DNA of 64,000 nucleotides from Glutamicibacter sp. PS (lineage in GTDB: Bacteria > Actinomycetota > Actinomycetes > Actinomycetales > Micrococcaceae), in the NCBI GenBank assembly GCA_031317595.1, contig JANCMB010000001.1:2731610-2795609 (forward strand). Direction: 5' to 3'. The position numbers were made by a program, and so were the translations under genes. Shown one piece after another: positions 12,320 through 25,616 of this stretch (its first letter is position 1; each line of letters begins with the position of its first letter). The notes beneath the pieces were generated by a model. It saw only the letters and a list, made by a program, of their open reading frames with translations, made no database searches and had not been told where the DNA came from.

Positions 12320-14848
12320 TCAGTGACGACGTCGCATCCGTGCCGCGACCGCCACCACCGCACCGATCAGCAGGGCTGCCGCGCCGAGCCCGAGGAGTTG
12401 CTCGGCTGCGAAACCGGTGTCGGCCAGTTTCTCGTCGCGCTCCGGCGCCGAGGCTGTGCTGCTCGGTGTGGAACTTCGTTCCGGTGACTGGCTGGGTTCG
12501 GCCGAGACGCTGGGTTGCGGCGACTGGCTTGGCTCCGGGCTGTGCGTCGGCTCGGCGCTCGGGCTCGGGCTCGGTGCTGGCTGTTCGGTCAGCGCGAAGA
12601 GCTCCTCGACGGCGCCCAGGTGAGCGAAGACGGTCTCGCCCGTGGCGTCCTTGACCGCGTCGTTGTCGCTGACCACATACACCTGCCCGGAACCGGTCAC
12701 CCCCAGTCCCTCGAGTTTCTCTTGCACCCGCCCGTTGTCGCCGGTCAGACTCGGCATTACGTCCACGGCAAGCTTCTTGTGCAACATCGGTACCTGGCCG
12801 GCCACCGGCTCCGGCAACGTCACCTGATATACGGCCTTGAGTTGGGCGTGCTCCCCCACCTGGTTATCGCGTTCGATGACGGCCAGCGACCCGTCGGGCA
12901 GTGCGGTGATCTCCGAGAGACCATTCCACTGCCCCTTTCCGGCGCTGGGCTCGAGTTCGTACCCAAACCAGGCGAAGTCCCCGTCGGCCGGGCGATACCG
13001 TCCGATCCGCACGAAATCCTCGCCGGGTACCTCGCGCTGCAGGGCGAAGACCACCTCCTCGTCGGCGTCGGCCCCACGCACGGTCACGCCCTCCAGCCCC
13101 TGCTTGCCTAGGTCAGCGACGACGTCCTGTGGCAGCGGAACCTCCTCGGTCACCTCACCCTGCGCGTCGAGGTGCAGCAACAGGTTTTCGGGCCCGCTGG
13201 TTCCCTCGTGAACGGCCCAGAAACCACCCTCGGCGCGGGCGGCAATGCCTTCTAAGTCGTAGTGGGCCGGGGCGCCGTCCTTGGTCACCGGGATACTGCC
13301 ATCGATGAGCGCCGGACTCTGCGCGGTGTCGATGGAGTAGATCCGCGGTAGGTAGGCATTGTCGTTGACCGCGTAGAGCCGATCCGCGTTGGCCGGGTCC
13401 TGGCTCAGCCCACTCAGCGCCCCGAAGCCGGCGACCTTCTGGCCGTCGGCCTGCAGCTGCGGGAAGGCAGCCTGCGCGGCCCCGAAGTTGAAGAGGTTCA
13501 GCGAGGAACGCACCCCTTCCTCGGCCTCGTCGACCTCCGAGGAGATGGCCAGCAGGTCGCGGCCCGGAATCGGCAGCACGCCCTCGGGCCCGTTGGTGGT
13601 TGGCAGGCTCTGCACATAGCGCGGCTGCGTGGGATCGCTTAGCTCATAAACCGCCACGAAGTTCGCCCGTTCGGCGGCGACAAAGGCGTAATCGACCCCG
13701 TTGAACTCGGCCACGGCCAGCCCCTCGGGCTCGATGCCTTTCTTCTCCGCCCGGTGCTCGGGGAACAGGCCCAGCGCCAGCGCCAGCCGTTCGAGCTCGT
13801 TCCCGGCGTCCCAGATGACCTCTCCGGTGCTGGTGTCGAAGACCGAGAACCCGCGGCTGCCGCCCTTCCAGTCGCCCTCATTGGCCGTCAGCAGGTAGCG
13901 ATCCTGCGCCCAGGCAATCGCGTCGGGTTCGCGCGGGGCCTGTTCCAGCGAGCCGGAGGGATCGAGCTGCCCATCCTTGGCGGTATCCACCCCTGCCACG
14001 TCCACCGCCCCGGTGCTGAAGGCCCCGGTAATTTCGCCGCTTGGCAGGTCGACGAGCACCACGCCATTGTTCTCCTGCAAGCTCACCGCCAGCTGGTTCT
14101 GCCCGTTGATGCTCACATACTCCGGCTCCGGGTCTTGGGGCGTATCGAGACCGGCCTGCTCCAGCACCGGCAAGGCCTGCGGGTCACCGGGATCGCCACT
14201 GGTCAGCGGGACCTCACGCAGCGACCACTGCGCAGGTTCGTTAGCCGCCAAATCCAGGATCGCGATGGACCCGGCCGGCGCCTGCGGCAATCCGCCATCC
14301 CCGGCTTCCTCATCACGTTCATTCTCGATGGCGATCGCCGCAAAGGCGCCGTCGGCGGATACTGCGATGGAATCCGGCTGCCCGGGTAGCTCGAAACTGT
14401 GCACCACGGAGCGATCGGCAATCCGCACCACGTCGACCCGTCCGCTGGGCTGTGCATAGCTGGCGGAGGTACTGACCACCACAAAGACGTACTCGCCGTG
14501 GGTGGCGACGCTGGTGGGCTCGTCTTCTTCATTGCCCAACTGTTTCAGCGACAGGGTGCCAAGGCCCTGCGGGGCACTCGCGTTGGAGATGTCGACGAAG
14601 CCAATTTGCCGTGCCAACGCGTCGGTATAGATCAGTGTCTGCCCATCGGGTGACACCGCTGAAATCTCGGCGGCTGTCACCGCCGACTCGCCCTCCGGGT
14701 GATTTTGATACACCGGGTAGGTGGCGGTCCGTTCGAAGAACTGCTGCTCAGCGGCCAAGGCCTCCGGGCCGATCAGGGACACGCTTAGCGCCAACGATCC
14801 GGTGAGCAGGGCGCCGGCTAGTACACGAGGATGAAGATTGCGATTCAC
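12320..14848 (-). CDS. Secreted, sortase-anchored protein with choice-of-anchor I and esterase-like phytase domains
   Basis: An 842-residue exported protein. A signal peptide (residues 1 to about 32, ending EALAAEQ) is followed by a beta-propeller-like choice-of-anchor I region (about 40-460) and an esterase-like-activity-of-phytase domain (about 460-740, with YDLEGIAAR, LEGVTVRG and NGLSEITALPDGSL). A Ser/Pro repeat spacer follows. The end has LADTG, a hydrophobic helix and RMRRRH. LAxTG is the class E sortase motif of high-GC Gram-positives, so the protein should be linked to the peptidoglycan. It may cleave phosphate esters outside the cell. The enzymatic activity is inferred from the domain name and not from visible catalytic residues. 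Confidence 0.82.
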   Translation of the reverse strand: MNRNLHPRVLAGALLTGSLALSVSLIGPEALAAEQQFFERTATYPVYQNHPEGESAVTAAEISAVSPDGQTLIYTDALARQIGFVDISNASAPQGLGTLSLKQLGNEEDEPTSVATHGEYVFVVVSTSASYAQPSGRVDVVRIADRSVVHSFELPGQPDSIAVSADGAFAAIAIENERDEEAGDGGLPQAPAGSIAILDLAANEPAQWSLREVPLTSGDPGDPQALPVLEQAGLDTPQDPEPEYVSINGQNQLAVSLQENNGVVLVDLPSGEITGAFSTGAVDVAGVDTAKDGQLDPSGSLEQAPREPDAIAWAQDRYLLTANEGDWKGGSRGFSVFDTSTGEVIWDAGNELERLALALGLFPEHRAEKKGIEPEGLAVAEFNGVDYAFVAAERANFVAVYELSDPTQPRYVQSLPTTNGPEGVLPIPGRDLLAISSEVDEAEEGVRSSLNLFNFGAAQAAFPQLQADGQKVAGFGALSGLSQDPANADRLYAVNDNAYLPRIYSIDTAQSPALIDGSIPVTKDGAPAHYDLEGIAARAEGGFWAVHEGTSGPENLLLHLDAQGEVTEEVPLPQDVVADLGKQGLEGVTVRGADADEEVVFALQREVPGEDFVRIGRYRPADGDFAWFGYELEPSAGKGQWNGLSEITALPDGSLAVIERDNQVGEHAQLKAVYQVTLPEPVAGQVPMLHKKLAVDVMPSLTGDNGRVQEKLEGLGVTGSGQVYVVSDNDAVKDATGETVFAHLGAVEELFALTEQPAPSPSPSAEPTHSPEPSQSPQPSVSAEPSQSPERSSTPSSTASAPERDEKLADTGFAAEQLLGLGAAALLIGAVVAVAARMRRRH

Positions 14849-16659: not shown

Positions 16660-17121
16660 ATGACCGCGAAACTTCCGATCACCCTCGATTCCGTAGATGC
16701 CGCACTGCTCGAACGCATCCAGCACAACGGGCGGCAAAGCGTCGCCGAGCTGTCGCGGAGCCTGAATATGAGCCACAGCGCCACCGCCGAACGACTGCGC
16801 CGTCTCGAAGAAAACGCGGTGATTAGCGGCTACGCGGCACACTGCGATCCAGAACGCCTGGGGTACAGCATCATGGCGTTTATTCATCTGCGCTACCCGA
16901 GTAGCAACTACGCGCCGCTTCATGAACTCATCGGCCAGATGCCCGAAATCATCGAGGCCCACCATGTCACCGGCGACGACTGCTTCATCATGAAGGTTAT
17001 CGCCGGTGACATGAGGCATCTGGAACAACTCAGCGGCCGGGTGGGGTCCTTGGGAAGCGTGCGGACCTCGGTGGTGTATTCCTCGCCGCTAGCTTCCCGC
17101 GCCTTAGCACCGCGCGCCTAG
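16660..17121 (+). CDS. Lrp/AsnC-family transcriptional regulator
   Basis: A 153-residue Lrp-type protein. The N-terminal helix-turn-helix (DAALLERIQHNGRQSVAELSR, then SHSATAERLRRLEENAVI) is followed by an RAM ligand domain with the characteristic HHVTGDDCFIMKVIAGDM. It is divergently transcribed from the rhodanese gene, the usual arrangement for Lrp regulators and their target. Amino-acid or cysteine sensing is a guess. Its stop shares a CTAG with the convergent phosphatase lipoprotein gene. Confidence 0.9.
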   Translation: MTAKLPITLDSVDAALLERIQHNGRQSVAELSRSLNMSHSATAERLRRLEENAVISGYAAHCDPERLGYSIMAFIHLRYPSSNYAPLHELIGQMPEIIEAHHVTGDDCFIMKVIAGDMRHLEQLSGRVGSLGSVRTSVVYSSPLASRALAPRA

Positions 17122-18548
17122 TCTTGCTTCACTAGGTCTCCCAAGCAACGACGCAGTTCGGTGTCCGCGTAGAAGAAGCTGCCCTCTTCGATCGGTTCGC
17201 AATCGAATCCGAATGGGATTTCGCGCTCGTTGTAGAGCATCCGCACAAGCACCTCGTGATCGTCATTGGCATAGACATCCCACTGAATGTTCGAGCCCAT
17301 CGGCGCGACCTGCGCCCCGCGCCAGTCATTGTTTTCGTAGCTGAATAGGCTATCGGCCGGCTGGGCGGTGGTGCTGCCGGGCAACTGCAGCAGCGCGGCC
17401 AAGGGAATGATCTCCTCCGCGTGGGCGAAGCGGAAGTCCGCGGCTTGGGTAGTTTCACCGGTACGCACTCCGGTGACCGCGTCGAGCATATCGGAGAGCA
17501 GCACATCGGCCATCCGGTAGGTCACGTCGCTGCCGACGAAGCTTGGGCCCTTCTCGTAGAAATCTTCGGCTTCGGAGACGCGCGAGAGCACCAAGGCGTC
17601 GTCGTTGGTGAGGAACTGGCTAAAGTCGATGGGGTGCTCATCGGCCATACCCGGAGCGATAACGTACAGCTCATACAGGTACATGGCCGCATCGACGACG
17701 CTTTGCAGGTGCTTCTTTCCCTTGCCCCGATCGACCAGATCGATCGCGCCGCTATCGAGCTTAGCGATGAACTCTTCGGTAAATAGTCGACCGACCACCC
17801 GGCGAGCCACCTGCTGAATTTCCGGGTCGGCCTCGACCTTGTCGAGAGTTTCAGCCAGTAGCGGGTCGTTGTCCACGAAGTCGTTATAGGCTTCGTCGGT
17901 GTCGTGGAAGTAGAGCACGTCGGGCTTCGCCACCGGCTCGCCGATCACCTCCGCTAGGTCGTCGTCCTGGTCGGTCAGCCCCTGCACAAAGTTTTGTGCG
18001 CTATCCACCGCCCTGTCCACTCCGGAGGTCGCCACGTTGATCGGTAGTTCGTCGTCTTCGGCCTCCTCGAAGAGGTCCTCCATGCGCTCATAGGCACGCT
18101 CGGCCATATCTCGGTGCTCTCGTTGGCCCAGGGCACTGAGGTTTCCGTAGCCGACCTGTTCGTGCACGGCGGTGATCTCTGCGACCACCGGTCCGAGCCG
18201 CTGACCGGTCTCGGTGAGACCGTTCTCTGACTTGGCCATTTCCCAGAGCTGCGTGATCAGATCGTCGTATTTCTTGCTCGAGAGCAAACGTGAGCCGTGG
18301 CGGGCCACATGTTCGAGCAATACCGGCTCAAACTCGTCGGGTGCCTCGGAGTATTCGATGTCCTCCGCCGGGGCCTGATAGGTCGCCTTGGTGCCTAGGG
18401 CTAGGCGCGCGGCATCCGGTGTCTGGGATTGGCTGAAGCTCTGGGTTTGCGGGGTTTCAGCCGCGAAGCCGGTGGTGCTGCACCCGGTTAACGCCAACAT
18501 GGTGCCAACCAGTGCCAGCGAGGTGATCCGTGAGGTGGTGTCCTTCAT
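17118..18548 (-). CDS. MINPP-like histidine phosphatase lipoprotein (probable extracellular inositol-polyphosphate/acid phosphatase)
   Basis: A 476-residue lipoprotein. The lipobox LALTGC puts the lipidated Cys at residue 23. The nucleophile motif is EHVARHGSR (R83, H84, G85). TSGVDRAVDSAQNFVQGL is the second conserved block, and FRFAHAEEIIPL (H376-A-E) is the proton-donor motif; HAE rather than HD is typical of multiple inositol polyphosphate phosphatases. It would release phosphate from phytate-like esters on the outer membrane face. The ATG at 18548 has AAGGAG upstream. It lies 43 bp after the LacI gene and probably ends the seven-gene transport operon. The exact substrate is inferred. Confidence 0.82.
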   Translation of the reverse strand: MKDTTSRITSLALVGTMLALTGCSTTGFAAETPQTQSFSQSQTPDAARLALGTKATYQAPAEDIEYSEAPDEFEPVLLEHVARHGSRLLSSKKYDDLITQLWEMAKSENGLTETGQRLGPVVAEITAVHEQVGYGNLSALGQREHRDMAERAYERMEDLFEEAEDDELPINVATSGVDRAVDSAQNFVQGLTDQDDDLAEVIGEPVAKPDVLYFHDTDEAYNDFVDNDPLLAETLDKVEADPEIQQVARRVVGRLFTEEFIAKLDSGAIDLVDRGKGKKHLQSVVDAAMYLYELYVIAPGMADEHPIDFSQFLTNDDALVLSRVSEAEDFYEKGPSFVGSDVTYRMADVLLSDMLDAVTGVRTGETTQAADFRFAHAEEIIPLAALLQLPGSTTAQPADSLFSYENNDWRGAQVAPMGSNIQWDVYANDDHEVLVRMLYNEREIPFGFDCEPIEEGSFFYADTELRRCLGDLVKQD

Positions 18549-18591
18549 GAATGATGCTCCTTGGAGTGTTGGTGATGGTTCCTGCGGGGTG

Positions 18592-19590
18592 TTACAGGTC
18601 TGTGGTCGAAGCGCGAGCGACAAGGCTCGGGGTGTAGAACTCGCGCAGTGGCTCGGTGCGTCCCTCGCCGCGTTCGACGAGGGCGTCCACGGCGCGTCGT
18701 CCCATCTGCGCTTGCGGCTGATCGATGCTCGTGAGGCTGGGGTAAAGCAACTCGGTCAAGTGCGTGTTGTCGTAGCCGATGACCGACAGGCGATCCGGTA
18801 CGGGGATGGATTGCTGATGGGCCAGGCGGATGACCTCGGCCGCCGTCAGGTCGTTATTGCACAGCAGCGCGTCGAGGTCCCGTTCATCGAGCAGACGCTG
18901 CAGGTCGATCTGTTCGCCCGAGGCGATCTGAATCAGGCAACTGGGCAAGTTCGCATCGGCCAGAGCCAGCTGCACGCCCTGAACACGCGCCTGACTGGTG
19001 GCGCTCAGCGAGCGGGACAGGTACCCGATACGGCTTCGCCCGCTAGCAATTAGATGTTCCACCGCCAGCCGGGCGCCGAGGATATCATCGCTGGCGATGG
19101 TATCGATCACCGGCGGCGGATCGGCAATCTGGGTGACCACCACGGTCGGGACCTCCGCACCGGCCCTCTCCAGCACCTCTCTGGGCACCCAGGACGAGAC
19201 GATCACCAAGCCATCCACGCGTAGCTCGATCATCGTGTCGATCTGCCGCCGCAGCTCCGCCTCGGAGTGGCCGCCGTGGCCGATAAGCACACTGGCGCTC
19301 AGTTCCCTAGCGCGCGCTTCCACCCCGTCCACGATTCCGGTGTGGTGTTGGTTTCCCAGCTGGTTCAGAACCACACCGATCAGCCCCGAGACCCCGCGCA
19401 CCAAGGAGCGCGCAGCCGAGTTTGGTCGATACCCTAGGTCTTCTGCGGCGTCCAAGACCAGCAGACGGCTTGCTTCGCTGACGCCCGGATCTCCACGCAG
19501 TGCGCGTGAAGCCAGTGACTTAGAAACCCCGGCGCGTTCGGCCACATCGATGATGGTGGGTCGCCGGCCGCTGGCAAGCTGCAGTGACAT
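18592..19590 (-). CDS. LacI-family transcriptional regulator
   Basis: A 332-residue LacI/GalR protein. The N-terminal helix-turn-helix and hinge helix read TIIDVAERAGVSKSLASRAL and GYRPNSAARSLVRG, followed by a periplasmic-binding-like sensor domain. It is the sixth gene of the run, four bases after the IMPase-family gene, so it is likely autoregulated. Two identical 13-bp palindromic sites of LacI type stand at the head of the cluster. The effector would be the imported compound or its dephosphorylated product, which is inference. Confidence 0.92.
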   Translation of the reverse strand: MSLQLASGRRPTIIDVAERAGVSKSLASRALRGDPGVSEASRLLVLDAAEDLGYRPNSAARSLVRGVSGLIGVVLNQLGNQHHTGIVDGVEARARELSASVLIGHGGHSEAELRRQIDTMIELRVDGLVIVSSWVPREVLERAGAEVPTVVVTQIADPPPVIDTIASDDILGARLAVEHLIASGRSRIGYLSRSLSATSQARVQGVQLALADANLPSCLIQIASGEQIDLQRLLDERDLDALLCNNDLTAAEVIRLAHQQSIPVPDRLSVIGYDNTHLTELLYPSLTSIDQPQAQMGRRAVDALVERGEGRTEPLREFYTPSLVARASTTDL

Positions 19591-19594
19591 GGGG

Positions 19595-20467
19595 CTAGTC
19601 CCCGATTCCCGCGCGGCGGCGCGAGACCCGCTCGACGAAGCTCTCTAACGCCGGATAGTGCGCGCCGGGTCCCGCCGCCACGAAGGCCGGGGCCAGGTGG
19701 TCCGGGCGCTGAGCCTGCGGGGCATCTAACCAGACCGGACGGTAACTGCCCCCGGCGCGTCGCACGATCAACGCGCCGGCGGCCACATCCCAGGGGTTGA
19801 CCGAGCCGCCGAATGCGCAGTCCACCCAGCCGGCCGCCACGTGGGCTAGGGTCAACGCCCCGGATCCGGTGCGACGAAGCGAGGAGAACGCCTCGATCAA
19901 GGTGCCGGCATCTTCCAGTGCCGTGGATCCTTCCACGGCGAGATCGCGGGCGGTTGGGTACCCGGTGATCATGGTGGCCGCATCGGCCGGCTGAGCGGGA
20001 GCGGTGCGCAGGACGCTGCCGTCCAGATAGGCGTGCCAGTCATCGGCGCTGAACATGCGGTCGGCCATCGGATCGTAGATGACCCCGGCACGCAGTTCCT
20101 CGTCGACCTCCGCCCCGATGGACACGCAGAAGAAGGCCAGTCCCTGGGCGAAGTTCGACGTTCCGTCGATCGGGTCCACATACCAAGTCACCGGGCCGTC
20201 GCCGCCACGTGTGCCGCCTTCCTCACCGACGATGCGCCAGCTCGGGTCACGCTCCAGCAGGAACGGAACGATGAGTTCCTCGGCGGCCCGATCGTGCGCG
20301 GTGACCAGGTCGTGGCGGTCGCGCTTGTAGTCGATCTCCATCTTCGAGCGGAACACGGTGCGCAGGTAGTCGCCGGCCAGCCGGGCGGCATCCTCGGCGA
20401 CCAGGCGCAAGGTCTCGGCGTCGTGGCCGGTGACCGTCGAGTGGCTCTGGGTCTTAGGTAGGGACAT
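19595..20467 (-). CDS. Inositol-monophosphatase-family phosphatase
   Basis: A 290-residue member of the IMPase/FBPase/CysQ superfamily. The metal and substrate motifs are present: IVGEEGGTRG (81-85), WYVDPIDGTSNF (98-106) and, near the C-terminus, NPWDVAAGALIVRRAGG. It hydrolyses a phosphomonoester with Mg2+ in the cytosol; inositol-1-phosphate is the founding substrate, but histidinol-phosphate, fructose-bisphosphate or PAP are alternatives in the family. Its start overlaps the HAD gene end by 14 bases, so the two are translationally coupled. The cluster context favours inositol phosphate or another sugar phosphate. Confidence 0.85.
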   Translation of the reverse strand: MSLPKTQSHSTVTGHDAETLRLVAEDAARLAGDYLRTVFRSKMEIDYKRDRHDLVTAHDRAAEELIVPFLLERDPSWRIVGEEGGTRGGDGPVTWYVDPIDGTSNFAQGLAFFCVSIGAEVDEELRAGVIYDPMADRMFSADDWHAYLDGSVLRTAPAQPADAATMITGYPTARDLAVEGSTALEDAGTLIEAFSSLRRTGSGALTLAHVAAGWVDCAFGGSVNPWDVAAGALIVRRAGGSYRPVWLDAPQAQRPDHLAPAFVAAGPGAHYPALESFVERVSRRRAGIGD

Positions 20468-21230
20468 GAATTTTCCTCATTTCGTTCAACAGGTCTCGTG
20501 GGGTGCCCAGTACTAGGTCGGCGCTGACCGGCACGTCATAGGGGCGGGCGGCGCTCCCCGGCGAAGGCATGAGCACGTTGGCGCCGATACCCGCACGGGT
20601 GCCGCACAGCACGTCACGGTCCAAGTGGTCACCCACGTACCAGCAGTCGGCGATATCTAGGTTCAGCGTCTGGGCGCCGAGGTGCAGGAAGTCGGGGTTG
20701 GGTTTGCGGAGGCCACATTCATCCGAATACAGCTCGGCGACGAAGTAGTGGCTGAGCCCCTGCTCCGCGAGGTAGTCGCGGTGCACCTGCCCGCACATAG
20801 CGTTGGAGACGATCGCGACGGGCAAGCCGATCTGCTGGCACCATGCCAGTAGCTCCTCGATGCCGTCGCGCAGGGTGCGCAGTTCCTTGGTGGAGCTAAT
20901 CAGGTAGCACAGCGCCGCGATGTGTTGGGCGATGGTTGCCCGAGCTTCGTCGGGCCAGTCTGCCGCGATGAAGTCCATCACGTAGCTTTCCTGATCCAGT
21001 TCTCGCGGGTAGCGCGGACGAGACATGGCGTTGCGCCACAGGCCGGCGGCCACCGCACCGGCGGTGATGTCCGCCAACAGGCGTTCGCGCGGGACCAGCG
21101 GCCCCTCTCCCACCAGGCTCAATACGGACTCGGTGACCGTCTGCTGCCACCCGACGGGCTTTTCAGAATTCACGATGACTCCGCCAAAGTCCAGCAACAG
21201 GCCGCCGGGCAGGTCTAGATTCTGCCTCAT
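20454..21230 (-). CDS. HAD-superfamily (class IA) phosphatase-like hydrolase
   Basis: A 258-residue HAD protein. The nucleophile is D14 in LLLDFGGVIVN. The +2 position is Gly, a known variant also seen in glucose-1-phosphatase-like HADs. SNAM supplies motif II, GLRKPNPDF the lysine, and WYVGDHLDRDV the acidic motif. It would remove a phosphate from a small metabolite in the cytosol. Its ATG overlaps the ATPase stop as ATGA, and its end overlaps the IMPase start, so it is firmly part of the transport operon. The substrate is not known. Confidence 0.82.
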   Translation of the reverse strand: MRQNLDLPGGLLLDFGGVIVNSEKPVGWQQTVTESVLSLVGEGPLVPRERLLADITAGAVAAGLWRNAMSRPRYPRELDQESYVMDFIAADWPDEARATIAQHIAALCYLISSTKELRTLRDGIEELLAWCQQIGLPVAIVSNAMCGQVHRDYLAEQGLSHYFVAELYSDECGLRKPNPDFLHLGAQTLNLDIADCWYVGDHLDRDVLCGTRAGIGANVLMPSPGSAARPYDVPVSADLVLGTPRDLLNEMRKIHVPT

Positions 21231-22315
21231 GCCGCAACCTCCATTCGTTCGTAACGCACACCCGAGCCAGTGAAAAGGTGCACCGCCTGCGGTGCCACAA
21301 GGACCGGTACCAGTTGCCCCTGCACCACCTGCGGACAACGCTGAGTGGTGGCGAAGTACCGACGTGCCCCGTCGTTCAGTTCGACGATCCACGACCCGCC
21401 GGTGGGCAGAAGCGCACTGACACGCAGGTCAAGGGTGAGCTGACCGCTACCGGGGCGATGCACCTCGCTGGTCAGCTGCAGGTCTTCGGGGCGGATCCCC
21501 AACGTGGCCACGTGTGGGTCGATGTGTTCAAGCCAAGCGTCGGCCTGCGCGTTCTGGCCGCGCTCAAAGATGTTGATCGGCGGGTTGCCCATAAATTCGG
21601 CAACGAACCGGTTAGCCGGGGCGTTGTAGATTTCCATCGGCGTGCCGACCTGCTGGATTTGGCCCCGGTTCATCACCACAATGCGGGTGGCTAGGGTCAT
21701 CGCCTCGAATTGGTCGTGGGTCACGAAGAGCATGGTGTTGCCCGTCTGACGGTGCAGGCGTTGGAACTCGGCACGCATCTCCAAGCGAAGCCGCGCGTCG
21801 AGATTGGAGAGCGGCTCATCCAGCAGCAGCACTTCGGGACGGGCGGCCAGCGTACGAGCGATGGCCACGCGCTGTTGTTGCCCGCCCGACAGCGCCGACG
21901 GGTACCTGTCGGCCAGCTCCGCGATGGCTAAGGTATCCAGCGCCTGTTGCACGCGCAGCTCGCGTTCGGCCTTCGGCAGTTTTTGCACGCGCGGGGCAAA
22001 GCAGACGTTCTCGCGCACGCTCAGGTGCGGCCAGAGCGCGTAGTTCTGGAACACCAAGCCCAGGCCGCGTTGCTCGGCGGGGATACAACGCCCGCTGGAT
22101 ACGTCGTCCACGACCCGATCTCCGATCACGATCCGCCCCGAGCTGGGATTTTCCAGCCCGGCGATCATGCGCAGCGTGGTGGATTTGCCGCAGCCCGAAG
22201 GTCCGAGCAGGCACAGGAATTCACCTGGTTCGATCTCTAGGTCCAACCCCTGCACACTGGGCGTGCGGCTACCGGGGTAGGTTTTACTCAGCGCGCTGAG
22301 CGTTATCTGCGCCAT
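21227..22315 (-). CDS. ABC transporter ATPase (FbpC/AfuC/PotA type)
   Basis: A 362-residue MalK-like importer ATPase. It has Walker A GPSGCGKST, Q-loop FQNYALWPHL, signature LSGGQQQRVAIART, Walker B VLLLDEPLSNLD, switch His in FVTHDQFEAM and a C-terminal TOBE-like domain. It energises import by the fused permease encoded upstream. The ATG at 22315 has GGAGG eight bases upstream, so I prefer it over the ATG 15 bases earlier. Sequence alone fits iron (Fbp), phosphonate or sugar-phosphate (Afu) branches. The phosphatase neighbours favour a phosphorylated substrate. Confidence 0.92.
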   Translation of the reverse strand: MAQITLSALSKTYPGSRTPSVQGLDLEIEPGEFLCLLGPSGCGKSTTLRMIAGLENPSSGRIVIGDRVVDDVSSGRCIPAEQRGLGLVFQNYALWPHLSVRENVCFAPRVQKLPKAERELRVQQALDTLAIAELADRYPSALSGGQQQRVAIARTLAARPEVLLLDEPLSNLDARLRLEMRAEFQRLHRQTGNTMLFVTHDQFEAMTLATRIVVMNRGQIQQVGTPMEIYNAPANRFVAEFMGNPPINIFERGQNAQADAWLEHIDPHVATLGIRPEDLQLTSEVHRPGSGQLTLDLRVSALLPTGGSWIVELNDGARRYFATTQRCPQVVQGQLVPVLVAPQAVHLFTGSGVRYERMEVAA

Positions 22316-22364
22316 GGCGCGATCCTCCATCCTGAGGGCGGGGCCGATTCACCGGCCGAGTTAG

Positions 22365-23534
22365 CTATTTGGCCGAGGTGCGCCAGAGGTCCTGCCACGC
22401 CTCGCGCGAGGCCCAGTCTGTTTCCAGGCCCGCATTGTTGAACTGGAAAATCTGCTCGAGGTGCTTGCCGACATGGGCCGGGTCCTCAGGCTGGGTGATG
22501 CTGGAGTTCGCCGAGATCTTGCCGTCGGCGATCTGTGGGGCGATGCCCTCGGCGGTCAGCGCGAAGTGCACGTAGAGTTTGGCGGCGTTCGGGCTCTTGG
22601 TCCCCGAGGCGATGGTCAGCCCCTTCGGGGATGCCTTGCCCACCCACGGGACCATGCCTTCGCAGACACCGAGAGCGTAGCCCTTTTCCTCAATATTTCG
22701 GTACTTGGCGCTGGACATCAGGGCCATCGGCGGGTTCTGCTGACCGGTGGCGCCCACGGCCTCGGAGGACTCTTCGCTGGACTTGGTCAGAATCGGCTGG
22801 TTGGCTGCCATACGGGCCACCCATTCGGCCGCAGCGGAATCCTTATCGGTCTTCAGTTCTTCGCCAAAGGCCTGCTGGTAGGCCTCGCGCAGGGCGTCCT
22901 CGCCGAAGCTCGCCATCTGGCTGTACCAGTCCAAGGCGCCGTTGTCCCCCACCGGGTCTTGGAAGGCCACCTTGCCGCGGAACTCCTCGGTGGTCAGGTC
23001 CCAGATATTATCGGCCGGGCAGCTCTGAAACGCCTCGGTGTTATAGGTCCAGAAGCTCGGGTCGGTGATCATCACCAACGGCTCACGCATCGACGGGTCG
23101 ATATGCTCGGCAAGGTCGCCAGGTACCCAGCTGGTCACGAAGTTGTTGGGCAAAAGCTGGTTTTTCAGCGCCGGAAGATCGGATATCGCCACCACATCGC
23201 CCACGACGTTGCCCGCCTGTGCTTCCCGGGTGACCTTCTCGATGGTTTCCGCGGCATCGGCCTTCACTCCGGTGGCCTCGATACCGTACGTCTTGGTGAA
23301 GGCCGCCGCCATCTCCTCCACCTTCGAGGTGCTGTCGTAGATGGTGATGGGGCCCTCGGATTTAGCGGCGGCGATGAGTTCGTCGAGGTTGTAGTCCTCG
23401 GCGGATTCGGTGACCGCGACGGGTCCAGGGTTTGCGCTGGACGCGGGATTGCCCCCGGCGCATCCGGTAAACAGCAGCGCTCCGATGGCGAGGGTAGCGA
23501 GGGTGGCCATACGGCCGGTGCGGATGATGGTCAT
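22365..23534 (-). CDS. ABC transporter substrate-binding lipoprotein (AfuA/FbpA-like)
   Basis: A 389-residue binding protein with lipobox LLFTGC near residue 25. The mature part opens as ITIYDSTSKVEEMAAAFTKTYGI, the class II (spermidine/iron/AfuA) binding fold, and includes GDVVAISDLPALKNQ. It captures the substrate at the outer membrane face and passes it to the fused permease. AAGGAG precedes the ATG. Annotation as an iron-binding protein would be the routine guess. Hexose-phosphate-binding AfuA belongs to this family, and the HAD, IMPase and MINPP-like neighbours point the same way. Confidence 0.85.
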   Translation of the reverse strand: MTIIRTGRMATLATLAIGALLFTGCAGGNPASSANPGPVAVTESAEDYNLDELIAAAKSEGPITIYDSTSKVEEMAAAFTKTYGIEATGVKADAAETIEKVTREAQAGNVVGDVVAISDLPALKNQLLPNNFVTSWVPGDLAEHIDPSMREPLVMITDPSFWTYNTEAFQSCPADNIWDLTTEEFRGKVAFQDPVGDNGALDWYSQMASFGEDALREAYQQAFGEELKTDKDSAAAEWVARMAANQPILTKSSEESSEAVGATGQQNPPMALMSSAKYRNIEEKGYALGVCEGMVPWVGKASPKGLTIASGTKSPNAAKLYVHFALTAEGIAPQIADGKISANSSITQPEDPAHVGKHLEQIFQFNNAGLETDWASREAWQDLWRTSAK

Positions 23535-23582
23535 GGCGTTCTACTCCTTGGTGCGATGGTGTTGCGATGGTGTTGTTGAGGT

Positions 23583-25421
23583 TTAGCCGCCTAGCCCATC
23601 GGCTAGGTTGCTACGGAAAAGTCGTTGGGTCGCCCAGGTGCCGAAGAGGGCAATGGCGCAAATCAGCACCACCACGGCGTTCGCGGCGTGGGTGTAACCG
23701 AAGTCGATCAACGTCATGGACAGCGTGGTCATAAGCTGGGTGCCCGGGGTGGCCAGAATGATGACGAGGCTCAGACCCTGCACCCCCGAGACGAAGGGCA
23801 GCAAGGTGGCGCTGGCCACCGAGCCACGTAGCATCGGAATGATCACGGTGCGCATCCGTCGGGTAAAGCGCGCCCCGAGGCTTTGTGCCGCTTCCTCGGC
23901 CTCCTGCCCCAGCTGCATCATCGCCGACACCCCGGCCCGTGAGGCAAAGGGCATTTCATCGGCGATCATGATCAGGATCAGGATGGTGGCGGTGCCATAG
24001 AGTGCGGGGATGGGGCCGCGCGGTACGGCGAAGAGGGAGAGGTAGGCCACCGCGAAGGCTAGACCCGGCACGAGGTAGGGCATGAAGGTGATGACGCGCA
24101 GGGCGGTGCCCAACTGCCGAAGCGGGGAGCGCACCACAACGTAGCCGACAAGCAGCCCCAGCAAGCCCGTGCAGATCGCGGCCAGTCCAACCATCCACAG
24201 GGTGTTCCAGGCCGCGTGCCATGTCTCTGGCGAAACCAGCACGCCCCGGTTGAATCCCACGGTGGGAAGGTTGTGGCCGACCCAGTAATCCAGGGTGAAG
24301 TTCGACAGGGCGAAATGGCCAGGCACCCGCATCACCGTGGACAGCACCAATGTGCCCAGGGGCAGTACCACGGAGATCGTGAACAACGCGGCGACCAGCG
24401 TGAAGGCGAGAACCTTGAAGCGTGCCAGCGGCACCACACGCGCCGCGAGGCTCTTACCCGAGACGGTCATGAAACGCTTGGCCTCGCGCAGGAAGCGAAT
24501 ATCGATCAGGAGCGAAATCCCGCCGAGCACCACCATGACCGCTGCGATCACCGCGGCTACCCCGGACTGCTGGGTAGAAATGCTTTGGTGCAGGGTCGTG
24601 GAGAGGACCTGGAATCCGGCCGGCAACCCCAGTACGTAGGCCACGCCGAATTCTCCGACGGCCTTGGCGAACATCAGGGTCGCGGCGGAGAGCAGCGCCG
24701 GACGCAGCAACGGCAGAGTGATTCGCCGCCACCGTTCCGCGGCCGTGGCTCCGGCCATTTTGGCCGCTTCATCCAGCTCCGAGGGAAGGTTCCTCATGGC
24801 GTTGGTGACCAGCAGGATCACGAAGGGAGTGAAGTGCAGGCAGAAGATCACGATAATGGGCAACGGCCCATAGGCCAGCCAGTTCGGAGGCTCCCATCCT
24901 AGGGACTCGAGCCAGCCCAGTTGCCCTGCGCTGCTGCGGTTTTTGAAGATCGTCGTCCAGGCCAGCGCGAAGGTCCAGGCCGGCAGCATATAGGGCACGA
25001 TCAACGCACTGGAGAACCAGCGCCGAGCCGGCAGATCGGTACGAGCCAGCAGCCAAGCCACCGGCACCCCGCTCATCAGGGCCAGCGCGATGGAACACAG
25101 CGAAATAAGCAGGGTGTTGCGTAGCGGCGTGTAAAAAATGATCTCGGAGACCGGGGAGCTAAAGACTCGCGCCAAGTAGTAGCTGGTCAACTCGCCCGCT
25201 CCGGCTCCGGCCTTTGCCTCGTCGCCGAAGCCGACCTGCACGGCGCCCATTAGCAACGAGATCACCGGAGCCACGATGAGGTACCCGAAGAGCAGAATCA
25301 ACAGGATCCCGATGAGCGTGGCCGGGTGCCGGAAATTCACCTTCGTGCGGTACGCCAGCCCCTGGGTTTGTGGACGCACTTGGCGTGTGGAACGTTCCCT
25401 TTTCGGGGTAATGAGTGCCAT
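23583..25421 (-). CDS. Fused two-domain ABC permease (FbpB/AfuB type)
   Basis: A 612-residue permease with two tandem membrane domains of about six segments each. Each carries an EAA-type loop: ELDEAAKMAGATAAERWRRI in the first half and EEAAQSLGARFTRRMRTVII in the second. Both halves of a usual heterodimer are therefore one chain, as in FbpB and AfuB. The start is the ATG at 25421, with GGAGGGATGT upstream; a longer frame would run into the operator region. It is the first gene of the operon, and a LacI-type site lies inside its first codons. Confidence 0.9.
   Translation of the reverse strand: MALITPKRERSTRQVRPQTQGLAYRTKVNFRHPATLIGILLILLFGYLIVAPVISLLMGAVQVGFGDEAKAGAGAGELTSYYLARVFSSPVSEIIFYTPLRNTLLISLCSIALALMSGVPVAWLLARTDLPARRWFSSALIVPYMLPAWTFALAWTTIFKNRSSAGQLGWLESLGWEPPNWLAYGPLPIIVIFCLHFTPFVILLVTNAMRNLPSELDEAAKMAGATAAERWRRITLPLLRPALLSAATLMFAKAVGEFGVAYVLGLPAGFQVLSTTLHQSISTQQSGVAAVIAAVMVVLGGISLLIDIRFLREAKRFMTVSGKSLAARVVPLARFKVLAFTLVAALFTISVVLPLGTLVLSTVMRVPGHFALSNFTLDYWVGHNLPTVGFNRGVLVSPETWHAAWNTLWMVGLAAICTGLLGLLVGYVVVRSPLRQLGTALRVITFMPYLVPGLAFAVAYLSLFAVPRGPIPALYGTATILILIMIADEMPFASRAGVSAMMQLGQEAEEAAQSLGARFTRRMRTVIIPMLRGSVASATLLPFVSGVQGLSLVIILATPGTQLMTTLSMTLIDFGYTHAANAVVVLICAIALFGTWATQRLFRSNLADGLGG
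25387..25399. promoter_or_regulatory. LacI-type operator, intragenic copy
   Basis: GTGGAACGTTCCC with a perfect 10-bp palindromic core (25389-25398) and central CG, as in LacI/GalR sites. It lies within codons 8-12 of the permease gene and is identical to the site at 25545-25557. The centres are 158 bp apart, close to 15 helical turns. Confidence 0.6.
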
Positions 25422-25501
25422 ACATCCCTCCACGTGACCGGTGATTACGGGGCCGACGAGGAGGTTTCCCCGCGGCACCTGTTTGAGGCTATGTGGCGTG
25501 A

Positions 25502-25511
25502 GCAACGTTCA
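25502..25511. promoter_or_regulatory. Half-conserved LacI-type site
   Basis: GCAACGTTCA keeps the central AACGTT of the two strong sites but is less symmetric. It is 45 bp from the upstream copy and falls about where transcription of the operon should begin. Confidence 0.35.
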
Positions 25512-25517
25512 GATGGC

Positions 25518-25544
25518 AGTAAAGTGAACGGCTCGAATCATCAA
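25518..25544 (-). promoter_or_regulatory. Possible promoter of the phospho-compound uptake operon
   Basis: On the minus strand TTGATG (25539-25544) could be a -35 and TTTACT (25518-25523) a -10, though the 15-bp gap is short. It lies between the upstream strong operator and the half-site, about 100 bp before the permease start. Confidence 0.35.
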
Positions 25545-25557
25545 GTGGAACGTTCCC
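25545..25557. promoter_or_regulatory. LacI-type operator, upstream copy
   Basis: GTGGAACGTTCCC, identical in all 13 bases to the copy at 25387-25399, directly beside the possible -35 element. It is the probable binding site of the LacI regulator encoded in the same cluster. Confidence 0.65.
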
Positions 25558-25570
25558 CTGTCGAGGCACG

Positions 25571-25616
25571 AAAAAGCCGCCGCGGCGCTCCACATCGTGT
25601 GGTGCGCCGCGGCGGC
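25571..25616 (-). terminator. Rho-independent terminator downstream of the 98-residue membrane protein gene
   Basis: A 13-bp stem (25576-25588 with 25604-25616) is extended by an inner CCACA/TGTGG pair. On the minus strand it runs into TTTTT at 25571-25575. It insulates the operon promoter just downstream from readthrough. Confidence 0.85.

Follow-up and report, generated by a model that had tools for sequence, protein, structure and literature searches.

An operon with an iron-type ABC transporter and three phosphatases in Glutamicibacter: a proposed importer of phytate-derived inositol phosphates

What is carried by an ABC transporter of the kind labelled as an iron importer when its operon holds three different phosphatases and no gene for iron? 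The question is raised by a 64,000-nucleotide stretch of DNA from Glutamicibacter sp. PS (Micrococcaceae, Actinomycetota; contig JANCMB010000001.1, positions 2,731,610 to 2,795,609), here called the window, in which seven co-directional genes run along the minus strand from 25421 to 17118. In operon order they encode a fused permease, a substrate-binding lipoprotein (SBP), an ATPase, a HAD-family hydrolase, an enzyme of the inositol monophosphatase (IMPase) family, a LacI-family regulator, and a histidine phosphatase lipoprotein of the multiple inositol-polyphosphate phosphatase (MINPP) type. A first-pass annotation, made from the letters of the window, had described this tightly packed set, had pointed to RHGSR and HAE motifs in the MINPP-like protein and to the lack of any iron gene, and had proposed that an outside phosphatase trims phytate or a similar ester, that the transporter imports the product, and that the other phosphatases finish it. 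The layout is as described: all seven genes are present in the given order on one strand, the intergenic distances are 48, 34, -4, -14, 4, and 43 bp (thus at most 48 bp), both motifs are found in the MINPP sequence, and none of the seven is an iron gene. The operon probably serves to take up phytate-derived inositol phosphates under the control of LacI, a reading to which we give a probability of about 0.75. The comparative evidence establishes linkage; substrate, direction, and regulation are inferred.

In this scheme, the MINPP lipoprotein would act on the outer face of the cell and, judging from its family, dephosphorylate phytate (InsP6) and similar esters. An inositol phosphate that has lost part of its phosphate groups, most likely down to a mono- or low polyphosphate, would be captured by the SBP and imported, still phosphorylated, by the fused permease and the ATPase. 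In the cytoplasm, IMPase and the HAD hydrolase would remove the remaining phosphate; the inositol would pass to the iol pathway, whose genes are present on the chromosome, and the phosphate to metabolism. The local LacI protein would repress the operon through two operators that lie about 15 helical turns apart.

The proposal is supported by the genes that accompany this transporter clade elsewhere, namely IMPase, other kinds of phytase, and inositol catabolism genes. The comparison covers 30 loci: 28 from a contig scan with an alignment of four SBPs, selected via the peptide patterns EGPITIYD and CP..NIW, together with the window and locus L046 (handles beginning with L and G are ours for loci and genomes). 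There are 22 actinobacterial and 8 rhizobial loci, with neighbours annotated in part. The SBP is present in 30, the ATPase in 29, IMPase in 29, and the permease in 27; the permease is missing at contig ends in L075 and L093, the SBP of L096 is partly lost in the same way, and the permease of L073 is split over two open reading frames. The other partners vary. HAD is found in 12 loci, MINPP in 4, and a beta-propeller phytase in 4, the same 4 that have PHO4 and DUF47; the 8 rhizobial loci have a DSP-like phosphatase and a metallophosphoesterase, and 6 of them a Na/Pi (inorganic phosphate) cotransporter. The transporter and IMPase would therefore form the constant core of a wider module in which the phytase and the accessory phosphatases are exchangeable. 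Frequent separation of the phosphatases from the transporter had been named in the first-pass annotation as evidence that would speak against it; IMPase stays linked, but MINPP and HAD do not, and in some lineages other phytases replace MINPP. HAD and the DSP-like gene never occur in one locus among the 30, and our guess is that each, in its own lineages, deals with a phosphate that is hard for IMPase to remove, perhaps that of Ins(2)P.

Phytases of different kinds are found beside the transporter. A beta-propeller phytase (PF02333) is encoded in 4/28 carrier genomes, all from Streptomyces or Pseudonocardiaceae, and in all four the SBP gene has a copy no more than about 3 kb away, together with PHO4, DUF47, and GntR genes. 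PF00328, the superfamily of MINPP, is present in 6/28 carrier genomes and stands next to the transporter only in two members of the genus. Klebsiella plasmids have a stretch, present in four plasmid records, that encodes in turn a KdgM-type porin, a histidine phosphatase, the permease, the ATPase, the SBP, IMPase, and a LacI-type regulator. Here the histidine phosphatase lies directly upstream of the permease, scores 242 bits with the AppA phytase model (cut-off 585), and has as its best solved relative 2wnh, named 3-phytase (8e-82). The MINPP type and the AppA type both fall within superfamily PF00328, and the beta-propeller type is related to neither. A megablast search with the Klebsiella module found it covered to 80% in 0 of 5426 E. 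coli genomes. Insertion sequence elements, as well as the porin gene, lie near the Klebsiella copy. A broader view, which we offer tentatively and which may well reach too far, is a phytate strategy shared across phyla: partial trimming outside the cell by an exchangeable phytase (MINPP, beta-propeller, or AppA), an ABC transporter dedicated to bringing in inositol that still has several phosphates (InsP2 to InsP4), and, in the cytoplasm, a series of phosphatases without common ancestry that complete the removal, which would include IMPase nearly always, HAD in actinobacteria, and the DSP-like enzyme and metallophosphoesterase in proteobacteria.

The link to inositol catabolism, which had been suggested as a check, is present in part: iolD is enriched among carriers and iol genes adjoin some loci, but not every carrier has iolD. 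A homologue of iolD scores over the cut-off in 23/30 carriers (15/22 actinobacterial, 8/8 rhizobial). In the phylum sample it does so in 44/296 genomes, or 43/295 when the window's own genome is left out; for the actinobacterial carriers against the Actinomycetota background, Fisher's test gives 1e-7, a value uncorrected for relatedness and draft genomes. Homologues of iolC, iolD, or iolE lie within 4/30 loci. In Arthrobacter gallicola (G100; L049, L053, and L087), the module is divergent from an iol-type gene set with iolE-like (128 bits, cut-off 290), iolC (361, cut-off 300), iolD (802, cut-off 715), and iolG-like (302, cut-off 540) genes, and an aldolase-like gene that we so label from a weak match. 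Homologues of these iol genes also lie within 10 kb in two Streptomyces loci (L082 and L084) and in Actinophytocola L088. The window's own genome has iolC and iolD over the cut-off, and their iolE-, iolG-, and aldolase-like neighbours are 69-74% identical to the A. gallicola set.

The module is rare and patchy. MINPP was found in 4/295 family genomes, all of the window's genus; the search for the SBP hit these 4 as well and gave six further matches of greater distance. Both co-occur in the same 4 of the 18 genus genomes sampled. A stringent SBP profile search (E 1e-60) returned 2/396 phylum genomes, the window's own and one of the sister type described below. The arrangement is unlikely to be a chance one, since three further genomes of the genus have all seven genes in this order, with proteins 69-83% identical. 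The idea that the set stays together across Micrococcaceae thus fails, and no MINPP was seen at the examined loci outside the genus. The flanking genes differ (DUF308, Lrp, and rhodanese in the window versus GH65 and MFS in L046), which fits a mobile or relocated operon.

The structure of the SBP narrows the ligand only so far. The AlphaFold2 model (pLDDT 89, pTM 0.84) has the cluster-D (type II) fold of AfuA-type binders, and Foldseek matched it with probability 1.00 to MctA, HitA, AfuA, and P5PA (TM 0.54-0.78 among the best 50 matches). Since the matches bind mixed ligands (metal-citrate MctA, ferric HitA, FbpA, AfuA, the glucose 6-phosphate (G6P) binder VcA0625, and P5PA), the fold does not decide the ligand of the SBP. 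A phmmer search of the SBP against PDB sequences gave no match at 0.1, and a profile of 35 SBPs reached AfuA, MctA, and others in the PDB weakly. The consecutive tyrosine pair of FbpA is its iron ligand. The SBP has no consecutive tyrosines, its invariant tyrosines (66, 83, 164, and 219) being non-adjacent, and a search for iron-ligand tyrosines, proposed as a possible refutation, thus finds no FbpA-like pair. The analogy with AfuA holds for the fold but not for the pocket, whose phosphate-binding residues are not conserved: the profile alignment sets KADAAE of the SBP against NGSGST, the AfuA loop with Ser37 and Gly38, given an offset between chain and paper numbering that we deduced.

Six residues, K91, K277, D140, Q206, C172, and C291, are invariant in 44/44 module SBPs (35 from alignment A3, 9 from plasmids) and differ in the aligned SBPs of a sister clade; conservation of residues within EGPITIYD and CP..NIW is partly due to selection, because the loci were found through those patterns. 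C172 is kept also in the 9 plasmid SBPs, which were found without them. K91 and K277 are Asp in 6/6 sister-clade SBPs, and R279 is common to both clades. The two clade-specific lysines would suit a more anionic ligand.

A maximum-likelihood tree separates the 44 module SBPs from six sister rows with a split of 100/100, subject to the program's warning that long branches meet where the sister clade and the Rothia-Leucobacter group are concerned. Four groups make up the module: Glutamicibacter-Microbacterium-Actinomycetaceae-Propionimicrobium, which has HAD; Rothia-Leucobacter-Pseudoclavibacter-Microbacterium-Arthrobacter gallicola, which lacks it; Streptomyces-Pseudonocardiaceae, which has the beta-propeller phytase; and Rhizobiaceae, with two or three tandem SBPs. 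The IMPase tree, from which one short row of 39 was dropped, agrees in these four groups, and a paralogue from the window's own genome, on a long branch, falls among them. In the sister loci (L050, L051, L052, L055, L056, and L120), matches to His_Phos_1 and RpiR were found in 6/6 and IMPase in 0/6 of the fetched stretches; in L056, the phosphatase is only a fragment and no permease or ATPase was matched. The sister loci resemble the module in that a homologous AfuA-like transporter stands beside a phosphatase. However, they differ in SBP sequence (27-35% identity to the module), in the lack of an IMPase match, in the regulator, and in the Asp residues that replace the two invariant lysines. 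This clade looks more like a sugar-phosphate system. It is perhaps another importer of phosphorylated compounds.

The enzymes differ in how closely their sequences define them. Assignment of the predicted phosphatase lipoprotein to the MINPP family is secure; its solved relatives are 7zgf (multiple inositol-polyphosphate phosphatase, 9e-85), 6rxd (histidine acid phosphatase, 2e-76), and 4fdt (named putative multiple inositol polyphosphate histidine phosphatase, 6e-24). IMPase-family proteins carry DPIDGT and WD-AAG motifs; the operon IMPase has both, besides a PF00459 match of 163 bits, and is one of four PF00459 genes in its genome. HAD phosphatases have a DxD motif I, then Ser, Lys, and acidic motifs downstream. 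In the HAD hydrolase of the operon, the motif-I Asp, SNA, RKP, and GDxxDRD are present, and position D+2 is Gly (DFGGV) in 11/11. Its model (pLDDT 93) has N-acetylneuraminic acid phosphatases as best Foldseek matches, followed by other HAD phosphatases and dehalogenases, and phmmer found no match at 1e-5.

Local control is suggested by the head of the operon. The palindrome GGGAACGTTCC has two exact copies in the 3.44 Mb genome, both of them there (O1 and O2), and the regulator has the helix-turn-helix domain of LacI proteins (PF00356). The LacI protein would thus be a local repressor acting at O1 and O2, and may loop the DNA. A pair of operators at 156 bp spacing is kept in L046, L047, L048, L069, and L070, which represent three other genomes of the genus (L047 and L069 are one, L048 and L070 another). 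An exact GGAACGTTCC occurs once at the permease start in L072 and once before the ATPase gene in L073, and was not found in L071, L074, or L075. When one mismatch is allowed, the genome has 56 matches versus 29 for a reversed control, the 56 including the two exact sites and the same two read on the opposite strand; given this roughly 2-fold excess, the LacI regulon may extend further, or the genome may have other sites of LacI type. For inositol or an inositol phosphate as a possible effector, a precedent is the LacI-type protein IpsA, which is reported to be released from DNA by myo-inositol (PMC3899939).

Several findings weigh against the full proposal. Few genomes have all seven genes, many of the loci lack MINPP or HAD, and 22/30 loci have neither MINPP nor a beta-propeller phytase. 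The operon IMPase scores 133 bits as an inositol monophosphatase (NF008027, cut-off 332) versus 130 as a histidinol phosphatase, both below the cut-off, and the sequence alone does not separate the two. In seven of the 30 carriers, iolD does not pass the cut-off (G181 and the genomes of L072, L073, L074, L075, L094, and L096), four of these genomes being metagenome assemblies; G181, a carrier within the genus, has a divergent iolC (50%). Within the genus, iolC is over the cut-off in 4/4 carriers versus 6/14 non-carriers (p 0.09). No operator with up to one mismatch lies near the iol genes of the window's own genome (C1 2,913,372-3,059,319); thus, operon and iol genes are not under one visible operator. 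Streptomyces L082 has the SBP, a phytase, and iol genes, with no match to a permease, ATPase, or IMPase within 10 kb. Finally, Agrobacterium pAt (L135 7896-8870) encodes a shortened SBP homologue, apparently a remnant, next to which the annotation shows neither permease nor ATPase nor IMPase.

Uptake of iron, phosphonate, or hexose phosphate of the AfuA type each ranks below uptake of inositol phosphates. An importer of 2-aminoethylphosphonate (PhnT2/PhnU2) was considered and rejected: the best NCBIfam match of the permease, TIGR03262, reaches 150.8 bits, far under its cut-off of 593.25, and TIGR03265 reaches 307.5 with a cut-off of 457.7. A ferric iron transporter like FbpABC, with unrelated phosphatases alongside, would agree with the automatic annotation and with the matches to ferric HitA and FbpA, and phytate is itself a chelator of iron. 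Yet the missing tyrosine pair, an operon without an iron gene, and the presence of IMPase in nearly every locus make it scarcely tenable. Distinctly unlikely, too, is a general importer of phosphorylated sugars (hexose or heptose phosphates) of the AfuABC kind, working with unspecific phosphatases and linked to inositol by coincidence. It would share the cluster-D fold, for which AfuA, VcA0625, and P5PA are among the matches, and AfuA itself binds G6P, fructose 6-phosphate, and sedoheptulose 7-phosphate, as reported for AfuABC (PMC4546632). However, the phosphate loop of AfuA is not kept in the SBP, and IMPase, phytases, and iol genes all go with the module clade; of the two clades it is the sister, with its RpiR and His_Phos_1 genes, that looks the more sugar-phosphate-like.

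Two further alternatives keep inositol phosphates, or relatives of them, as the cargo. The first holds that organophosphates, inositol phosphates included, are taken up mainly for Pi, with inositol as a by-product or used for lipid or thiol synthesis, a view that in part agrees with the preferred reading. PHO4 stands beside the module in 4/30 loci and a Na/Pi cotransporter in 6/30, and the carriers without iolD agree with it, but it would not lead one to expect iol genes next to the module in several lineages, or, in the window's genus, a LacI gene and operators belonging to the operon itself, and as a full account we regard it as unlikely. An improbable variant is that the ligand is glycerophosphoinositol or another inositol phosphodiester headgroup rather than a product of phytate. 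The metallophosphoesterase homologue of the 8 rhizobial loci (with a Pfam match in L077, L131, and L134) would suit such a ligand, and IMPase would still be required after cleavage; the transporter is, however, linked to several phytase families, and no glycerophosphodiesterase is among the annotated neighbours, which are part of all neighbours.

Phytate is a large phosphorus pool in soil and feed. If inositol phosphates are indeed imported, the label 'iron' is wrong for a transporter clade found on S. meliloti pSymB and other bacterial plasmids, and both a model rhizobium and the window's genus could be used to test whether phytate leads directly into inositol catabolism. The operon MINPP belongs to the same sequence family as the solved bacterial enzymes, with RHGSR and HAE. 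Other bacterial MINPPs are known as stand-alone enzymes, whereas this one shares an operon layout with an importer. Known inositol importers (for example, S. meliloti SMb20712) feed the same iol pathway but take up free inositol, whereas the module would import a phosphorylated form. AfuABC shares with the module a cluster-D SBP, an iron-like annotation, and an organophosphate ligand of an ABC importer; it differs in sequence (18-20% identity in the fold search), in the Ser37/Gly38 loop, and in its links, which are to sugar-sensing genes (PMC4546632) rather than to phytases, IMPase, and iol genes. P5PAB, a pyridoxal-phosphate importer, has an SBP of the same fold class and a phosphorylated ring ligand; the identity is 17%, and the part of its description used here mentions no phytase or IMPase link (PMC8427247). 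Searches among 5.39 million open-licence papers, preprints excluded, turned up no bacterial ABC importer of inositol phosphates; the nearest remark found is a speculation on an HlyB-family transporter in Caulobacter (PMC2597717). S. meliloti SMb20712 is reported to give no reaction to inositol 1,4,5-trisphosphate or phytic acid (PMC3454389).

Plasmid copies were followed in 11 regions, hand-picked partly from a list of 103 plasmid records, two of the regions being unannotated. The permease is named 'iron ABC transporter permease' in 8 of the 9 annotated regions, the ninth having no module, and so the first-pass expectation that automatic annotation would call the transporter iron uptake is borne out for homologues. 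The core of permease, ATPase, SBP, and IMPase is also present in annotated plasmid regions of Devosia, Shinella, Thioclava, Sinorhizobium, Erwinia, and Klebsiella, and a MINPP homologue is found in 11 plasmid records. On the Klebsiella and Erwinia plasmids, the IMPase gene after the SBP is fused to a DSP-like domain (L129 10096-11535 and L132 10029-11615) with weak matches of 28.9 and 26.6 bits, below the 33.5 cut-off; in free-standing rhizobial relatives, the CX5R motif is present in 14/14. The rhizobial module (L077 413-5351 and 14411-15037; L127; L131; L134) has up to three tandem SBPs, a metallophosphoesterase, and DSP-like CX5R phosphatases, and most of the loci add a Na/Pi cotransporter that has PhoU domains. 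A module of this type is present on S. meliloti pSymB. Directly ahead of the module on a Shinella plasmid (L134 1-4695) stands another ABC transporter, accompanied by an IMPase gene of its own.

Table 1. Features of the operon and its upstream region (window coordinates)
Feature	Position	Strand	Remarks
LacI-type operator O1 (GGGGAACGTTCCA)	25546..25558	-	upstream of operon
LacI-type operator O2 (AGGGAACGTTCCA)	25388..25400	-	within first permease codons, 158 bp from O1
Fused two-domain ABC permease, 612 aa	23583..25421	-	PF00528 twice
Cluster-D substrate-binding lipoprotein (SBP), proposed inositol-phosphate binder	22365..23534	-	
ABC transporter ATPase	21227..22330	-	PF00005, 128 bits
Clade-specific hydrolase of the HAD family, proposed cytoplasmic phosphatase	20454..21230	-	motif I DFGGV
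Inositol monophosphatase (IMPase) family enzyme	19595..20467	-	PF00459, 163 bits; DPIDGTSNF and WDVAAG motifs
LacI-family regulator, proposed local repressor at O1/O2	18592..19590	-	PF00356
MINPP-type histidine phosphatase lipoprotein, 476 aa, proposed extracellular phytase	17118..18548	-	RHGSR, HAE; PF00328, 78 bits
Terminator-like hairpin of upstream gene	25581..25594	-	weak: region has 3 hairpins vs 5.5 in shuffles

Two starts were revised from the open reading frame list. The permease start is taken as the ATG behind GGAGGG, the longer listed form being judged less likely, and that of MINPP was moved from TTG 18623 to the ATG with GGAG upstream. The lipobox-like LTGC and FTGC were identified by eye. 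The hairpin between the upstream gene and the operon would separate the two, weakly predicted as it is, and a promoter scan of the region gave 2 sites versus 1.8 in shuffles, no excess. About 2.3 kb beyond the MINPP gene, at 12320-14848 on the minus strand, the window encodes an exported-looking protein with an LADTG tail, which matches PF13449, the 'esterase-like activity of phytase' domain (172 bits), and choice-of-anchor I.

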